Shown: positions 11,188 through 24,369 of the stretch, one piece after another
How positions within the stretch are numbered: the stretch's first letter is position 1
Layout: every line of letters begins with the position of its first letter
From: a virus
Length of the DNA stretch: 24,369 nucleotides
Reading direction: 5' to 3' (one strand)
IMG/VR virus record: IMGVR_UViG_3300003690_000069
Coordinates: 1-24,369 of that record
The notes under the pieces: generated by a model
Told to the model about the DNA's origin: nothing
Database searches by the model: none
Seen by the model: the letters and a program-made list of their open reading frames with translations, nothing else
Position numbers and translations under genes: made by a program

Positions 11188-11553
11188 TCACTGTTTGCGC
11201 CGCATTAGTTCATAGTGCAATATCCGCTGTACTTCAAGGAGAGTACCCTCTCCACCGCCGGGAACCCGCAATATCCATTCCTCACCCTTCTCGGCCACCT
11301 TCCTGGTAAGGTCACCAAAGGTCATTACGCCGTGGCGTTCCATCAGGTTCAGTGTCCTGGTGCAGAACTCTGCCTGTGCCAGCGGTGTAGATCCCAGCAC
11401 GCTGTTTGGTTTGTCTTGTATGGTGAACTCTGCCTGGGAGATAGCAACGTGCGCTGCCTCATAGTTACCCCGGATCAGGTGTGCTATCACCTTCTCGCCG
11501 GTACGGCGCGCCTCGGTTGGCTCCTGGCCAAGTTCATTTCCTATCAGTCCCAT
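11188..11553 (-). CDS. RNA polymerase alpha C-terminal-domain-like protein
   Basis: A 121-residue protein whose C-terminal 70 residues read like a bacterial alpha-CTD. PLAQAEFCTRTLNLMERHGVMTFGDL aligns with the 'L.VRS.NCLK...I.TIGDL' helices, and ILRVPGGGEGTLLEVQRIL aligns with 'LL..PNLGKKSL.EIK.VL', the helix-hairpin-helix turn that in alpha touches UP-element DNA and activators. The N-terminal half (residues 1-45) is helical and unrecognised; there is no alpha N-terminal domain. It could be a DNA-binding protein or could compete with host alpha-CTD. Its start lies inside the end of csrA, so the two are co-translated. The resemblance is by eye and needs profile confirmation. Confidence 0.6.
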   Translation of the reverse strand: MGLIGNELGQEPTEARRTGEKVIAHLIRGNYEAAHVAISQAEFTIQDKPNSVLGSTPLAQAEFCTRTLNLMERHGVMTFGDLTRKVAEKGEEWILRVPGGGEGTLLEVQRILHYELMRRKQ

Positions 11554-11722
11554 CTATAAGTTTTGCAGCAAGTTGATCTGCCACCTCCTTGCGATGCACA
11601 GCAACATTGTCCGGTGCCTTAATGCCGATCTTCACCCGGTCGGGAAGGATCTCCATTACATACAACTCAACGTCGTCACCAATTGTGATGACTTCCCCTT
11701 TTCGCCTAGTCAGGATCAGCAT
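11534..11722 (-). CDS. csrA: CsrA translational regulator
   Basis: A 62-residue protein, the normal CsrA length (E. coli 61). The first strand MLILTRRKGE, the IGDDVEL turn, RVKIGIKAP and VHRKEV match the family throughout. Leu4 and the Arg of VHR (position 44), the main RNA-contact residues in E. coli CsrA, are present. CsrA dimers bind GGA motifs in mRNA leaders, usually blocking translation. I chose the ATG at 11722, giving the canonical MLILTRR start with AAGAGAG upstream; an in-frame start at 11752 would add ten residues. It overlaps the HTH gene by 17 bases. Phage-borne copies may retune host or phage translation. Confidence 0.95.
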   Translation of the reverse strand: MLILTRRKGEVITIGDDVELYVMEILPDRVKIGIKAPDNVAVHRKEVADQLAAKLIDGTDRK

Positions 11723-11879
11723 TATGTTCTCTCTTGGGTATGAGCCACACATCTCCTACCTTCACGCCACCCAGCGTACCAGCCCGAAGCATCTGACGTA
11801 TACGGCCAGTGGTAACTCCCCGCTTCTCGGCTGCTTGCTTGACGGTCATCAGGTCTTTCAGTCTGTATTCATCATACAT
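11706..11879 (-). CDS. Excisionase/MerR-type HTH DNA-binding protein (57 aa)
   Basis: ATG at 11879 overlaps the preceding stop as TAATG; the stop TAG is at 11706-11708. The sequence LMTVKQAAEKRGVTTGRIRQMLRAG followed by GGVKVGDVWLIPKRE is a textbook HTH_17/excisionase winged helix: 'TVKEAA...GVS..RIRQLIR.G.L...KVG..WLIP'. Members act as recombination directionality factors, small repressors or accessory DNA-benders. It sits directly upstream of csrA with a 17-base overlap, forming a two-gene regulatory unit (DNA-level plus RNA-level). No integrase is in this window, so an excisionase role is unproven. Confidence 0.85.
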   Translation of the reverse strand: MYDEYRLKDLMTVKQAAEKRGVTTGRIRQMLRAGTLGGVKVGDVWLIPKREHNADPD

Positions 11880-14162: not shown

Positions 14163-14223
14163 AAAAAGCGGGGGGCAAAATACCCAAAGGATTTCTTGTC
14201 TAATCCTGCGGTATCCGCCCCCC
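14163..14223 (-). terminator. Three-tier hairpin with T-run, terminator or attenuator
   Basis: Reading the minus strand after the ssb stop: GGGGGGC pairs with GCCCCCC (7 bp), inside it ATACC pairs with GGTAT, and inside that AGGATT pairs with AATCCT around AGACAAGA. The outer stem is followed by GC and TTTTT. This is the shape of a Rho-independent terminator with a composite stem. It lies between ssb and the next gene, whose Shine-Dalgarno follows within about 20 bases, so it could act as an attenuator. Confidence 0.75.
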
Positions 14224-14232
14224 ACGTTGCAC

Positions 14233-14580
14233 CTAAAATGGGACTTCCTCCGCCTCAGTTTCCGACTTGCTACCAACCGGAATCATCTGGAGGTCTTGAA
14301 CCAGGACGCGAACCCGACTCCGCTTCTGGCCATCCTTCTCCCACGTTTCATGCCGCAGCTTACCACGGATGGTAACCCAGCGGCCCTTGGTGAGGTACTG
14401 GCTGACGGTATCAGCCAGCTTACCCCAGGCTGAGAGGTCAAAGAAGTTTGTGAACTCCTCGCCCCCCTTGAAATCGTGAACAGCGATAGCGAAGTTCGCC
14501 ACGTTGTTCTCTCCAACCTGTGTCGATTCAGGGTCAGCCGTAAGCCGCCCGGTCAACACAACCACGTTCATATCAGACAT
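14233..14580 (-). CDS. ssb: Single-stranded DNA-binding protein
   Basis: A 115-residue bacterial-type SSB OB-fold: MNVVVLTGRLTADPE at the start, NFAIAVHDF, FFDLSAWGKLADTVSQYLTKGRWVTIRGKLRHETWEKDGQKRSRVRVLVQDLQMI, and a short acidic tail ending EEVPF. The acidic, aromatic-ended C-terminus is the classic partner-binding tip, here EEVPF rather than DDIPF. The linker is very short compared with cellular SSBs. It coats ssDNA during phage replication and recombination with the RecE/Rad52-like pair. TCTGGAGAAAATAAG upstream supports the start. Identification is confident. Confidence 0.95.
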   Translation of the reverse strand: MSDMNVVVLTGRLTADPESTQVGENNVANFAIAVHDFKGGEEFTNFFDLSAWGKLADTVSQYLTKGRWVTIRGKLRHETWEKDGQKRSRVRVLVQDLQMIPVGSKSETEAEEVPF

Positions 14581-21056: not shown

Positions 21057-21190
21057 GCTACTAGTCCTCCAGGTTATCTCACCCCACTACCTAGCAGGCG
21101 GGTATCTGCATCACGTACCTCCATACTGGGCTACGTCCAGTACCGCTTTGGACTTTCATCGGCTATAGGAGGTGTCTGCTGCTGTGCGTG

Positions 21191-21289
21191 CGATGCGCGT
21201 GGGAGTCGAACCCACACCTGTAATCAACCCCACCTGTACTGGGCAAGGTTGTCGGTAAGGCCGGGCCTTGCAAAGCCCTCTTACGCACC
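21191..21289 (-). other. tRNA-like T-arm and acceptor module
   Basis: On the minus strand GTGGG-TTCGACT-CCCAC is a perfect T-arm with a consensus T-loop, followed by GCGCATC and one G. GGTGCGT at 21289-21283 can pair with all seven of GCGCATC (two G-T pairs), giving a 99-base cloverleaf-like element with two other arms, including GGGC/GCCC. No proper D-arm or anticodon arm can be drawn, so I do not call it a tRNA. GATGCGT at 21378 or 21475 could pair with the same 3' strand instead, closing a larger RNA. Confidence 0.4.
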
Positions 21290-21353
21290 TCATGTGTCTC
21301 TGGCGAGGGCTGGCCTCCCGATAGGATTGTGCAACAGAGCATTCGCTATCGGG

Positions 21354-21388
21354 CGGCTGCTTCACCTCACCACGCATCTTCTGCCCTT
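21354..21388 (-). repeat. RNA-domain direct repeat, copy 1
   Basis: A 35-base segment matching 21451-21485 97 bases later; 24 bases (CCTCACCACGCATCTTCTGC plus CCTT on the plus strand) are identical, and CGGCTGCT is shared before them. In this copy the segment follows the CCCGATAG/CTATCGGG hairpin, and CCTCACC can pair with GGCGAGG near 21303. Confidence 0.8.
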
Positions 21389-21450
21389 GTATCGCCGGTG
21401 AGGCCACCACCAGGCTGGCCTTCAGGGAACAGGGAGCTACCCTGCCCTGA

Positions 21451-21485
21451 CGGCTGCTACGCCTCACCACGCATCTTCTGCCCTT
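21451..21485 (-). repeat. RNA-domain direct repeat, copy 2
   Basis: Second copy of the segment at 21354-21388. Here it follows a different stem (TCAGGG/CCCTGA at about 21422-21450), and its CCTCACC pairs perfectly with GGTGAGG at about 21397. Both copies share GGCTGGCC on the other side of the stem, so the whole domain, not just this segment, is duplicated. Confidence 0.8.
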
Positions 21486-21605
21486 CGCCACGTTCGGAGG
21501 AGTTACAGACTGGGGCTTTAATCAGGGCGAATACCCGCCGGTAATTCGTTGCCTCCCGGCACCCTGGGTTAGATCCTCACGAACCTACCACCTTAATCCA
21601 GATAA

Positions 21606-21626
21606 CTCCTTCCAGCACGTAGCTGG
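21606..21626 (-). repeat. Hairpin repeat, copy 1 (CCAGC-ACGTA-GCTGG)
   Basis: A 21-base element, CTCCTTCCAG then CACGTAGCTGG, with a 5-bp stem and ACGTA loop. It recurs at 21714-21734 with one change, C to T in the stem, which keeps pairing as T-G. On the minus strand the stem is followed by AAGGAG. Confidence 0.75.
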
Positions 21627-21713
21627 TAGACCAGCGCGATTTGCTGGCTGCCGAGACAGATTTCTAACCGATTGGTTAGTCACGTATCTGTCTGACTCGC
21701 TCTAACAACGTAC

Positions 21714-21734
21714 CTCCTTCCAGTACGTAGCTGG
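21714..21734 (-). repeat. Hairpin repeat, copy 2 (CCAGT-ACGTA-GCTGG)
   Basis: Second copy of the element at 21606-21626, 108 bases away, with one substitution in the stem that remains paired as a wobble. The two copies flank the long AGACAGAT hairpin, suggesting a repeated unit in the structured RNA. Confidence 0.75.
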
Positions 21735-21802
21735 CGACTCCCATACGATACAACGTGATATCGTTGTATTGGTACAGGCAACAACTACCCACAACGGGTA
21801 GA

Positions 21803-21851
21803 CGCAACAACCACAACACAAACAAGTATTGTTTGTGTTGTTGTTGTTGCG
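21803..21851. repeat. 23-position near-perfect inverted repeat
   Basis: Arms at 21803-21825 and 21829-21851 pair at 22 of 23 positions (one C-T mismatch) around a three-base GTA loop. The arms are built of CAACAA/TTGTTG triplets and are poor in GC for a terminator; no T-run follows on either strand. It is the longest hairpin in the window and marks the likely 5' boundary of the minus-strand RNA. Confidence 0.85.
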
Positions 21852-21870
21852 CGTTGTGTACTTATAAACA

Positions 21871-22080
21871 CCGCTATCTGTCGGTAGCTTGGCGATTATC
21901 TTTGAGAATGGCAGAAATAACGATAAGTAACGTAGCCGACTAGGGCGGTCGATATTTTAGCCGCTGGAAGGGGGTCTGTAGGCTATCGGATTGATAATGG
22001 GTAGTACAATGGGGGTCTGGTTGTCGTCCGTTAGAATGGCAACAGAGGATAATTGCACCTGGGAGTAGGTTAGGCGCATA
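21871..22080. other. Non-coding spacer, promoter not identified
   Basis: About 210 bases between the hairpin array and the terminator of the upstream gene. I see no gene and no convincing promoter; TTTATAAGT near 21862-21870 (minus strand) is a weak -10-like sequence with no matching -35. A promoter for the downstream structured RNA should lie here if that RNA is independently transcribed, since the upstream transcript appears to end at about 22080. Confidence 0.5.
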
Positions 22081-22115
22081 AGAAAACCCCCCGGCTAGAT
22101 AGTCTAGCCGGGGGG
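22081..22115 (-). terminator. Rho-independent terminator
   Basis: On the minus strand CCCCCCGGCTAGA pairs perfectly with TCTAGCCGGGGGG (13 bp) around a three-base loop, and TTTTCTTAT follows directly. It lies 20 bases after the stop of the 22136-22930 gene. On the plus strand the hairpin is not followed by T's, so it acts mainly on minus-strand transcripts and separates that operon from the structured RNA locus. Confidence 0.92.
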
Positions 22116-22135
22116 TGGTGGTGTGCTGTGGTGTG

Positions 22136-22930
22136 CTACGCTGGCAATCGTTCATGATGCTGCATGGTATCGATATCAACGTACACCGAACCATCCTCAT
22201 TCAATGGTACGTCACACTCTTTGACGGGAGTTAGAATCCAGCCAGCCTCCGCTTTAACTACCCTAGCGGTTGTCACCGTTGCTTCCTGCGTGAAGAACAT
22301 CGCCTGTTCACGCTCATGCTCTGCAAGAGTAGCACAACCAATCTCTGGTTGACTATCAACAATAAACGATTGCGATAACTTCGCCACAGGCATCCCGTCG
22401 AAGTCTGCGCGATAGGTATCTAGGTGCTTGGAATACTTGTCGCGTGACCGCTTGCCATGGTCTTTCAACGTGCTATCCGCCAACGGTTTGCTGTTGGGGT
22501 TAGGTGTGGAAGATACTTTCCTCCATACGTTACGCCGGAATCCACAGAACCTGGAGAACGTCCAGAGTCCCTGTGTAGCTGGCGATATATCCTCTCCATT
22601 CTTATCGGTGACAATCAAAAATCCTGCGTCACTCAATAACCATTGGCTAAAATCGCCAATCGAATCCTTCGACATTAACTCGGCCTGTTTGAATGTGACC
22701 GGGGAGAATCGTGCATTCTTGTCACGGGTAATTGTCGGTTCGCTAGCTGCGCCGACGAACGTAACAACCCTTCTTCCCTTCTTGAGTTTTCCAGGGTGGT
22801 TGCGCTTGTCGTAGATTCTCCAAGCAGAAATAGACTCGCACTTGGCAATCCCGTGTTCTCGATCTAGTTCAACCAGTACGTTGAACTTGTGATCGTACGT
22901 AGGCTTCTCCAACTTTCGGTACGGTTCCAT
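22136..22930 (-). CDS. Hypothetical protein (264 aa)
   Basis: A 264-residue protein starting MEPYRKLEKPTYDHKFNVLV after AAGGACTTAGTAAC. It has beta-rich ends (HKFNVLVELDREHGIAKCES; AGWILTPVKECDVPLNEDGSVYVDID) and a basic middle (GFRRNVWRKVSS, LKDHGKRSRDKYSKH). A segment SKDSIGDFSQWLLSDAGFLIVTDKNGEDI may be a small alpha/beta unit. I recognise no family or catalytic motif. The basic centre would allow nucleic-acid binding. It ends the 22.1-24.2 kb operon, with a strong terminator 20 bases after its stop, and follows a structured two-hairpin leader. Confidence 0.72.
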   Translation of the reverse strand: MEPYRKLEKPTYDHKFNVLVELDREHGIAKCESISAWRIYDKRNHPGKLKKGRRVVTFVGAASEPTITRDKNARFSPVTFKQAELMSKDSIGDFSQWLLSDAGFLIVTDKNGEDISPATQGLWTFSRFCGFRRNVWRKVSSTPNPNSKPLADSTLKDHGKRSRDKYSKHLDTYRADFDGMPVAKLSQSFIVDSQPEIGCATLAEHEREQAMFFTQEATVTTARVVKAEAGWILTPVKECDVPLNEDGSVYVDIDTMQHHERLPA

Positions 22931-23037
22931 GTTACTAAGTCCTTAAAGTAGTGCGGCCGACTATTGAATCCCGTCGGCCTGGGGATCGGACTAACGTCCA
23001 ATGGCACCCCGGTAACCGGGGTGACGTTGGAAGTTAG
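22931..23037 (-). promoter_or_regulatory. Structured intergenic element, copy 1 (two hairpins)
   Basis: Almost the whole 107-base gap aligns with the gap at 23251-23355. Hairpin A: GGCCGAC (22955-22961) with GTCGGCC (22973-22979). Hairpin B: CTAAC (22991) with GTTAG (23033), then CCAA/TTGG, then CACCCCGG/CCGGGGTG. On the transcript, B follows the stop codon of the upstream gene directly and A precedes the next gene's AAGGA site. No T-run follows either hairpin, so termination is unlikely. Confidence 0.75.
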
Positions 23038-23250
23038 TTAGATATAGACGTTATCGGTGTCGTCAATGAATGGTCCAAAGCGATAGATTGCAGACATGGT
23101 ATTAACTGGATTGCCATTGTTAATGTCGGCCATAGCAAGCTCAGGATGCTTGAATGTATCCGCAAACAGTTTGCGAACATAATCCTCAGTAACTCGGGTT
23201 ACATTGCCGGTGTCCTTGCATTGACGGAAGTATGGTCTTGACTCTGCCAT
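23038..23250 (-). CDS. Small hypothetical protein
   Basis: A 70-residue protein: MAESRPYFRQCKDTGNVTRV then TEDYVRKLFADTFKHPELAM and a strand-like end (NTMSAIYRFGPFIDDTDNVYI). No family is recognised. AAGGATTAGTATC precedes the ATG. It is flanked on both sides by the homologous structured intergenic elements, whose hairpin B begins right after its stop codon. Confidence 0.68.
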   Translation of the reverse strand: MAESRPYFRQCKDTGNVTRVTEDYVRKLFADTFKHPELAMADINNGNPVNTMSAIYRFGPFIDDTDNVYI

Positions 23251-23355
23251 GATACTAATCCTTAAAGTAGCGCGGCCGATATTGAAATCCCATCGACCTG
23301 GAGATTGAACAAACGTCCAATGCTACCCCGCAAGCGGGGTAACGTTGGAGGTTAG
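23251..23355 (-). promoter_or_regulatory. Structured intergenic element, copy 2 (two hairpins)
   Basis: Homologous to 22931-23037 along its length. Hairpin A: GGCCGAT (23274-23280) with ATCGACC (23292-23298), one mismatch, and a C-G to T-A exchange at the loop end relative to copy 1. Hairpin B: CCAA/TTGG enclosing TACCCCGC/GCGGGGTA, where copy 1 has CACCCC/GGGGTG: a compensating C-G to T-A change. On the minus strand the tip reads G-CTTG-C, a known stable tetraloop type. Confidence 0.75.
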
Positions 23356-23691
23356 TCACTCAATAAAATCTACGCCTACCTCTGTTATGTAGAATCCATC
23401 CTCTTTTGCCAATTTCCATGCCGAATCCCACAGGTCAAAGTCAGAGTCCATATCAATCTCTAGACACTTATCAAAGTCAACGTCACTTGGCATCCAGCAT
23501 TCTCGACCAACAACCTTCTTGAATGCCAGCCACATAGCCTCGTTGGCATCGCAGTAGTCATGAGTATGGCAGATTGAGTTATCTTCCAACTTGGATGTTA
23601 GGGAGCGCAGTTCCGACATTTGGTCTACCGTCAACCAGTCTGTCAGAATACTAATAAATTCTTGAGCTAGTGCGTGTCGTGTGTCTGCCAT
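23356..23691 (-). CDS. Conserved hypothetical phage protein
   Basis: A 111-residue protein from the ATG at 23691 (GAAAGGCTGTACC upstream). It starts MADTRHALAQEFISILTDWL and contains HDYCDANEAMWLAFKKVVGRE and FDLWDSAWKLAKEDGF. The 'C.DAN..M..AF....GRE...........W..AW..A' pattern occurs in uncharacterised proteins of many phages, with no known role. Its start lies after a third copy of the hairpin B element. Confidence 0.76.
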   Translation of the reverse strand: MADTRHALAQEFISILTDWLTVDQMSELRSLTSKLEDNSICHTHDYCDANEAMWLAFKKVVGRECWMPSDVDFDKCLEIDMDSDFDLWDSAWKLAKEDGFYITEVGVDFIE

Positions 23692-23763
23692 GGTACAGCC
23701 TTTCAAAACAGGGTTACAAACTGCCAATGGCACCCCGGTAACCGGGGTGACGTTGGAGGTTTG
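23692..23763 (-). promoter_or_regulatory. Structured intergenic element, copy 3 (hairpin B only)
   Basis: The 72-base gap holds hairpin B: ACAAAC (23716-23721) with GTTTGT (23759-23764), CCAA/TTGG and CACCCCGG/CCGGGGTG. The outer stem differs from copy 1 (CTAAC/GTTAG) on both sides yet still pairs, a clear covariation. Hairpin A is replaced by the leader AGCCTTTCAAAACAGGGTT (plus strand), which recurs before the next upstream gene. Confidence 0.72.
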
Positions 23764-24150
23764 TTAAGACCACGCGGGTGCATCCTGTTGGGGTACTGGG
23801 GCAGTGTAGATATGAATTCGACCGGGACGCGATTCGACGATCACGCGAGTGCCAATTGTCCAGATGTCGCTAATTTTCTTGTTGGTTAAATCGACGATAG
23901 GGTTACCGGATGATTTGTGCAGATGCACTTTCCGTTTCCCGGTTGGACTGGCATCCAGTACAACGTAAGCAACACCGCTGCCGCCATGTGCGTAGAAGTA
24001 CTCGACGTCGTAGGGCGTGCCAGCGGGCATGTTGGCGGGGTCGAAGATATGTCGACCATCCAACCATAGTTTGCCAGATCCGTTTCTCCCCTCACCGATA
24101 GTGAGAGTAGCAACTTTGATTGCGGTAGTGGTAGTCATTAGGGTGTCCAT
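23764..24150 (-). CDS. Hypothetical protein, first gene of right-hand operon
   Basis: A 128-residue protein from the ATG at 24150 (GAAAGGCTCTAAC upstream). The frame stays open to the right edge, but that extension reads poorly and crosses the likely control region, so the ATG is preferred. It has MDTLMTTTTAIKVATLTIGE, then LDGRHIFDPANMPAG, YFYAHGGSGVAYVVLD and ISDIWTIGTRVIVESRPGRI, all beta-like, suggesting a small barrel or SH3-like fold. No family is recognised. A hairpin B element follows its stop. Confidence 0.68.
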   Translation of the reverse strand: MDTLMTTTTAIKVATLTIGEGRNGSGKLWLDGRHIFDPANMPAGTPYDVEYFYAHGGSGVAYVVLDASPTGKRKVHLHKSSGNPIVDLTNKKISDIWTIGTRVIVESRPGRIHIYTAPVPQQDAPAWS

Positions 24151-24369
24151 GTTAGAGCCTTTCAAAACAGGGTTTAGCGTCCCGTCCCACGCGCGTGGGG
24201 GGGCCGTTAGTATACTAAAATCGACACACTCTAGACCAGAATTCTCAAATAAACAACAAAGTATATATATTCGCCAATTATGTACACTAGTGAACAAGTG
24301 TACACCAGGCGTCCGTATTTCTCCTGTATAGATGGTGGCCAGAAATGCACACTGAGCAAGGCTAATTCG
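24151..24369 (-). promoter_or_regulatory. Leader/control region of the right-hand operon
   Basis: No separate gene is visible in these 219 bases. They hold the AGCCTTTCAAAACAGGGTT leader shared with 23692-23763, a perfect 14-base palindrome CCCACGCGCGTGGG at 24186-24199, an AT-rich stretch (24215-24280) and the operator-like dyad at 24281-24304. A weak minus-strand promoter can be drawn as TGTACA (24304-24299), 16-base spacer, CATAAT (24282-24277). Confidence 0.5.
24281..24304. promoter_or_regulatory. Operator-like dyad TGTACACT-N8-AGTGTACA
   Basis: Two perfect 8-base half-sites separated by 8 bases, giving a 24-base symmetric site typical of dimeric repressor operators. It covers the spacer of the tentative TGTACA/CATAAT promoter upstream of the right-hand operon. 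The symmetry is seen directly; repressor binding is inferred. The HTH and ribbon-helix-helix-like proteins encoded in this window are possible binders, without direct evidence. Confidence 0.55.

Follow-up and report, generated by a model that had tools for sequence, protein, structure and literature searches.

Bacteriophage T7 carries intergenic RNase III sites (R0.5, R1, R1.1, R4.7, and R18.5), hairpins of 45–50 nt that are built from an outer helix, a small internal loop, and an inner helix of about 9–10 bp, with a conserved AAGGTC...GGCCTT core and no terminator U-tract. In the promoter/stem-loop shuffling cassettes of T4-type phages, stem-loops bound accessory genes. The ESAS/SAS of Cluster K mycobacteriophages and the EF/EG inverted repeats of Microbacterium phages are repeated intergenic inverted repeats with a conserved leader, found at some genes of one phage group irrespective of gene identity; they are anchored at the start codon and were described as lacking support for mRNA hairpins (PMC3203893, PMC7302621). 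Virulent phages are also known to carry integrase-less attC clusters (TJE1, P12002L, and H101), in which a hairpin of 50–60 nt with AAC/GTT ends lies at each ORF end in one direction with extra genes between, TJE1 having three such sites among four ORFs (PMC9892861).

The window analyzed here is the complete IMG/VR virus record IMGVR_UViG_3300003690_000069 (24,369 bases), which is most likely a genome fragment. Its right end is occupied by a minus-strand operon of four genes in the order 128-aa, 111-aa, 70-aa, and 264-aa, which are probably transcribed as one mRNA:

23764–24150, minus strand: 128-aa gene, resident; homologue in the relative described below (57–63% identity)
23356–23691, minus strand: 111-aa cargo gene (phrog_21393); absent from the relative; distant homologues in Bradleyvirinae and Rhodobacter phages
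23038–23250, minus strand: 70-aa cargo gene, missing from the relative; searches gave no homologue
22136–22930, minus strand: 264-aa resident gene at the end of the operon; also has a homologue in the relative
22086–22116, minus strand: terminator-like site closing the operon, 14-bp stem with a TTTTC tail; counterpart in the relative (L015, about 1399–1434)

The intergenic gaps in the operon are 107, 105, and 72 nt long, whereas elsewhere in the minus-strand gene run most gaps are of zero length (median 0). No function was assigned to the four proteins by PADLOC or NCBIfam, and the 264-, 128-, and 70-aa proteins had no significant homologue among GenBank phages, indicating that the operon is present in no other annotated phage. 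A near-palindrome, TGTACACTAGTGAACAAGTGTACA, lies upstream of the operon (about 24280–24303) and is a possible operator; similar GTGTACACTTGTACAG motifs occur near the start of the relative's contig. On the other side of the operon, a 1.1-kb stretch without called genes (21057–22135) is a candidate origin or control region. It includes a strong hairpin (21803–21851) with A/C-rich and G/T-rich arms (CGCAACAACCACAACACAAACAA...TTGTTTGTGTTGTTGTTGTTGCG), and an analogous ACAAC/GTTGTTT stretch occupies the corresponding place in the relative (L015, about 1750–1820). In the relative, the operon is followed by three tandem copies of a 31-nt TCTCCAGG-type repeat (L015 1452–1544), and none was seen in the window.

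Every internal gap of the operon contains one of three near-identical hairpins of 48–49 nt (n = 3):

22990–23038, minus strand: hairpin 1, with ACTAAC / TCCAA / CACCCCGG helices and a TTA loop; starts at the last stop-codon base of the 70-aa gene
23309–23356, minus strand: hairpin 2, with a doubly changed top-helix pair (C-G to T-A) and one outer T-T mismatch; starts at the last TGA base of the 111-aa gene
23716–23764, minus strand: hairpin 3, with outer helix ACAAAC/GTTTGT and the same inner part as hairpin 1; starts at the last TAA base of the 128-aa gene

The initial annotation had placed the same hairpin at the upstream stop codon in three gaps between four genes, and this was borne out, the first stem base being the third base of the stop codon in all three (TAA-CTAAC, TGA-CTAAC, and TAA-CAAAC). 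The stems comprise about 19–20 pairs with small interruptions. What had been taken for a conserved 3x3 internal loop (CGT/CCA or CGT/GCA) is better read as a C-A mismatch, a G-C pair, and then a U-C mismatch or U-G wobble. Segments of 51–52 nt fold at -29.2, -26.1, and -26.8 kcal/mol (hairpins 1, 2, and 3), and none of 500 dinucleotide shuffles was as good in any copy (z -6.6, -5.6, and -5.3). When post-stop structures were ranked over 132 ORF ends, called mechanically and pooled from the window and the relative, the strongest five were these three hairpins and the operon-end hairpins of both genomes. Each operon-end hairpin lies within a terminator-like site with a T-run, while hairpins 1–3 are followed by no U-tract or T-run on either strand. 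No part of the window matched Rfam at the gathering score, and a tRNA search was also empty; the hairpins are a new sequence family, absent from Rfam. Another GC-rich hairpin, with long C/G arms, adjoins the 115-aa SSB gene and is kept in both genomes (window 14165–14233, minus strand; L015 9911–9980, plus strand).

The antisense (plus) strand of hairpins 1–3 folds better than the mRNA strand (-33.8, -27.4, and -32.5 versus -29.2, -26.1, and -26.8 kcal/mol), because a mismatch that is invariably C-A in the mRNA becomes a G-U wobble there. As this holds for all three hairpins, they may have a role at the DNA level. The strand evidence is mixed, in that the second hairpin described below folds better on the mRNA strand.

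Both arms had been reported to change with pairing kept. Both quoted changes hold up: an outer-helix T-A pair becomes A-T, and a top-helix C-G pair becomes T-A. Hairpin 2, however, breaks one pair, its outer helix ACTAAC/GTTTGT carrying the T-T mismatch. At the loop top of hairpin 2, a G-C pair has also become C-G, a third change that an alignment gap masks. The two doubly changed pairs that were scored in the main hairpin were equaled by 109 of 500 shuffles of the three sequences. With only three sequences compared, the covariation is true but thin, and is suggestive rather than proof.

A protein search with the 1235-aa protein from the left end of the window revealed a syntenic relative, IMG/VR 3300032138_000016 (G001), a 54.5-kb contig that matches the window in gene order over nearly its whole length, with many proteins 80–90% identical. 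In the relative, about 30 nt separate the 128-aa homologue from the 264-aa homologue downstream, and neither the 111- and 70-aa genes nor any hairpin is present. The two genomes thus differ here by two cargo genes and three hairpins. Because the outer genes of the relative are adjacent without a hairpin, the elements go with the two accessory genes and are not a conserved device of the whole operon. The initial annotation had suggested an RNA element for processing, stability, or translation control of each gene in the operon; a repeated structured element between the genes is well supported, conservation throughout the operon is not, and the function may be one of those named. Distant homologues of the 111-aa protein occur in Bradleyvirinae and a Rhodobacter phage, and its gene is thus a traveling accessory gene; the gaps around the homologues of Mallos, QDWS359, and RcSimone contain no copy of the hairpin. 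The edges of the repeated module are sharp: identity is 40–44 of 49 positions within the hairpin and 7–10 of 30 in the preceding coding bases, which is chance level, and the similarity therefore begins at the stop codon.

Searches of IMG/VR, GTDB species genomes, GenBank phages, and plasmids, and of the window and the relative themselves, revealed no further copy at the sensitivity used; near-identical records may have escaped such searches. A covariance model built from the three copies, the check proposed in the initial annotation, recovered only these three from both strands of the window, the relative, and the phage loci. Viral contigs that match exact or relaxed hairpin patterns do so within coding sequence, and the matching stretches fold differently; a covariance-model match of 22 bits (L023) was one of these coding matches and was set aside as weak. 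Two pattern matches in genomes (L012 and L013) show neither the outer helix nor the gene order and were taken as chance. When phages and plasmids were searched with hairpin 1 by blastn, only chance-level pieces were returned.

The remainder of each gap is a leader, and two of the three leaders contain a second hairpin:

22955–22979, minus strand: second hairpin of gap 1, GGCCGAC-GGGATTCAATA-GTCGGCC
23274–23298, minus strand: second hairpin of gap 2, GGTCGAT-GGGATTTCAAT-ATCGGCC
22931–22989, minus strand: leader type B before the 264-aa gene, consisting of the second hairpin and the ribosome-binding site TTTAAGGA
23251–23308, minus strand: leader type B before the 70-aa gene
23692–23715, minus strand: leader type A before the 111-aa gene, AACCCTGTTTTGAAAGGCT; common to the leader of the 128-aa gene (24151–24174; 93% over 28 nt)

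The second hairpin had been noted just before the ribosome-binding site in two gaps, and it is indeed present in both gap 1 and gap 2 and absent from gap 3. It has a 7-bp stem with one doubly changed pair and one U-G wobble, has an invariant GGGATT loop, lies before an AAGGA ribosome-binding site, and by itself folds only weakly better than its shuffles (z -2.1 and -1.0). Leader type B follows hairpins 1 and 2, and leader type A follows hairpin 3. Each gap is thus mosaic, combining one hairpin module with one leader module. Elsewhere, near-identical ribosome-binding leaders (GGAGGACTAGYAGCATGG and GAGGAGGATGAGTGATG) precede several genes of both phages (window 20453, 20826, and 21049; L015 6702–7521) and recall the start-associated sequences of Cluster K phages. 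The window also encodes a CsrA homologue (11534–11725, minus strand; PF02599, E 1e-20; about 83% identity in the relative), a phage-borne regulator that binds RNA.

We consider that there is about an even chance that the hairpins are boundaries for RNA processing or stability that were spread by duplication when the accessory genes joined the operon. At every internal stop codon, the polycistronic mRNA of the four genes would contain an RNA hairpin module of roughly 49 nt. This module would most likely be a double-stranded site of the RNase III type for processing or 3' protection, so that each cistron would end in a stable stem and the next would open with its own leader. The hairpins may have been copied along with the added genes by duplication or recombination; the copies end exactly at the hairpin edges, which makes such spread during accessory-gene addition the most likely course. 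The change would be a gain rather than a loss, the single relative being compatible with both. This reading is the best supported, since the plan, length, and stop-codon start of the hairpins match those of the T7 RNase III sites. Folding the T7 hairpins around positions that we take to be those of the sites, which are not annotated in the T7 record, gave starts at -4 (R0.5), +3 (R1), +1 (R4.7), and -2 (R18.5) relative to the end of the upstream stop codon. Hairpins 1–3 likewise have an interrupted stem of about 20 bp, lie between genes, and lack a terminator U-tract. However, they share no sequence with the T7 sites, show no AAGGTC...GGCCTT core, and are three copies only in one operon, with cleavage or protection, and RNase III as the enzyme, being putative.

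The stop-codon position would also suit a control of translation, in which the hairpin blocks ribosome run-on or re-initiation, leaving each gene dependent on its own leader, and the second hairpin tunes initiation, possibly through the phage CsrA binding the GGGA of the loop and the GGA of the ribosome-binding site. The exact start of the hairpin at the stop codon, the invariant GGGATT loop with its covarying stem before the AAGGA site, and the CsrA of the phage itself are consistent with this, as are the start-associated leaders with inverted repeats that recur in Cluster K and Microbacterium phages (PMC3203893, PMC7302621). We nevertheless regard it as distinctly unlikely: the loop and ribosome-binding-site GGA match the CsrA consensus at only 5–7 of 12 positions, and a CsrA operator in the second hairpin was rejected on this weak match; GGA-bearing loops also precede four other genes; and leader B stands before two of the four genes only, gap 3 having no second hairpin. 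Stable GC-rich stems straight after stop codons could also be U-less or partial terminators that dampen read-through after each gene, but this is highly improbable, as no T-run follows the hairpins on either strand and the terminator scan lists the operon end and not the hairpins. The hairpins did not turn out to be the ordinary terminators that the initial annotation had set against its own reading; without the U-tract, intrinsic termination fails for all three, and the terminator-like site sits after the last gene.

A site of cassette gain and loss at the DNA level is an alternative, albeit an unlikely one: the hairpin, as single-stranded DNA or a cruciform, or merely its repeated sequence, would act as in integron attC arrays or phage stem-loop/linker segments. 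In its favor, the two genes missing from the relative are bounded by hairpins, the AAC...GTT ends are kept in all three copies, the gene-plus-hairpin units share one orientation like a cassette array, the bottom strand folds better, the module edges are sharp with a mosaic of hairpin and leader types, and virulent phages carry integrase-less attC clusters that look the same (PMC9892861). Integron attC sites were the strongest DNA-level candidate. Because three hairpins among four ORFs with AAC/GTT ends and cargo genes resemble the TJE1 cluster, attC membership was tested directly with a covariance model built from eight real attCs (about 20 bits is used in the field). The model recovered held-out attCs of TJE1, MW202573, and class 1 cassettes. 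The hairpins scored only 8.4, 4.2, and 4.1 bits, as against 31 bits for TJE1 and 21 for the OXA-21 cassette site, both on the bottom strand, and 25, 20, and 19 for MW202573, and membership among integron attCs was rejected on this difference (4–8 versus 19–31 bits). The R' box GTTRRRY with its complementary RYYYAAC is matched only in part (GTTAGTC, GTTTGTT, and GTTTGTA), and, in place of an L box with an extrahelical base and asymmetric arms, the hairpins have arms of equal length with mismatches only. No tyrosine recombinase such as an integron integrase (PF00589) was found in the window, itself a fragment, or in the relative, and neither was a Y1 transposase (PF01797) of the REP/RAYT or IS200 type. 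Moreover, a gain of two cassettes predicts two sites rather than the three hairpins present. It is also quite improbable that the hairpins are a non-integron single-strand recombination module, by which the phage would gain and lose accessory genes as gene-plus-hairpin units joined exactly at the stop codon.

If the hairpins are processing sites, another phage group has arrived at stop-codon hairpins like those of T7 with an unrelated sequence, and such hairpins can move together with incoming genes. This would account for the way in which phages accommodate foreign genes in an operon without disturbing the neighbors. If they are recombination modules, they would represent a cassette system outside integrons. 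Both readings are testable on a short cloned operon.

As in the T4-type cassettes, stem-loops bound accessory genes at this locus, and it differs from them in that no promoter-like site was found in the hairpin-bearing gaps of the operon. The integrase-less attC clusters (PMC9892861) share with it a hairpin at each ORF end, the single direction, the AAC/GTT ends, a similar length, and the extra genes between, and differ in arm symmetry, R box, and model score, an integrase being absent here too. The resemblance to ESAS/SAS and the EF/EG repeats lies in the repeated intergenic inverted repeat with a conserved leader, irrespective of gene identity; the ESAS/SAS arrangement itself, a 17-bp inverted repeat upstream of the 13-bp start-associated sequence GGGATAGGAGCCC, is not seen, as leaders A and B differ, and the hairpins, unlike ESAS/SAS, are anchored at the stop codon with pairing largely kept. 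The hairpins are of a known kind, that of intergenic phage hairpins for mRNA processing or of repeated intergenic inverted repeats such as ESAS (PMC3203893, PMC7302621), and what is uncommon about them is that they are anchored exactly at three unrelated stop codons and are linked to the presence and absence of genes.
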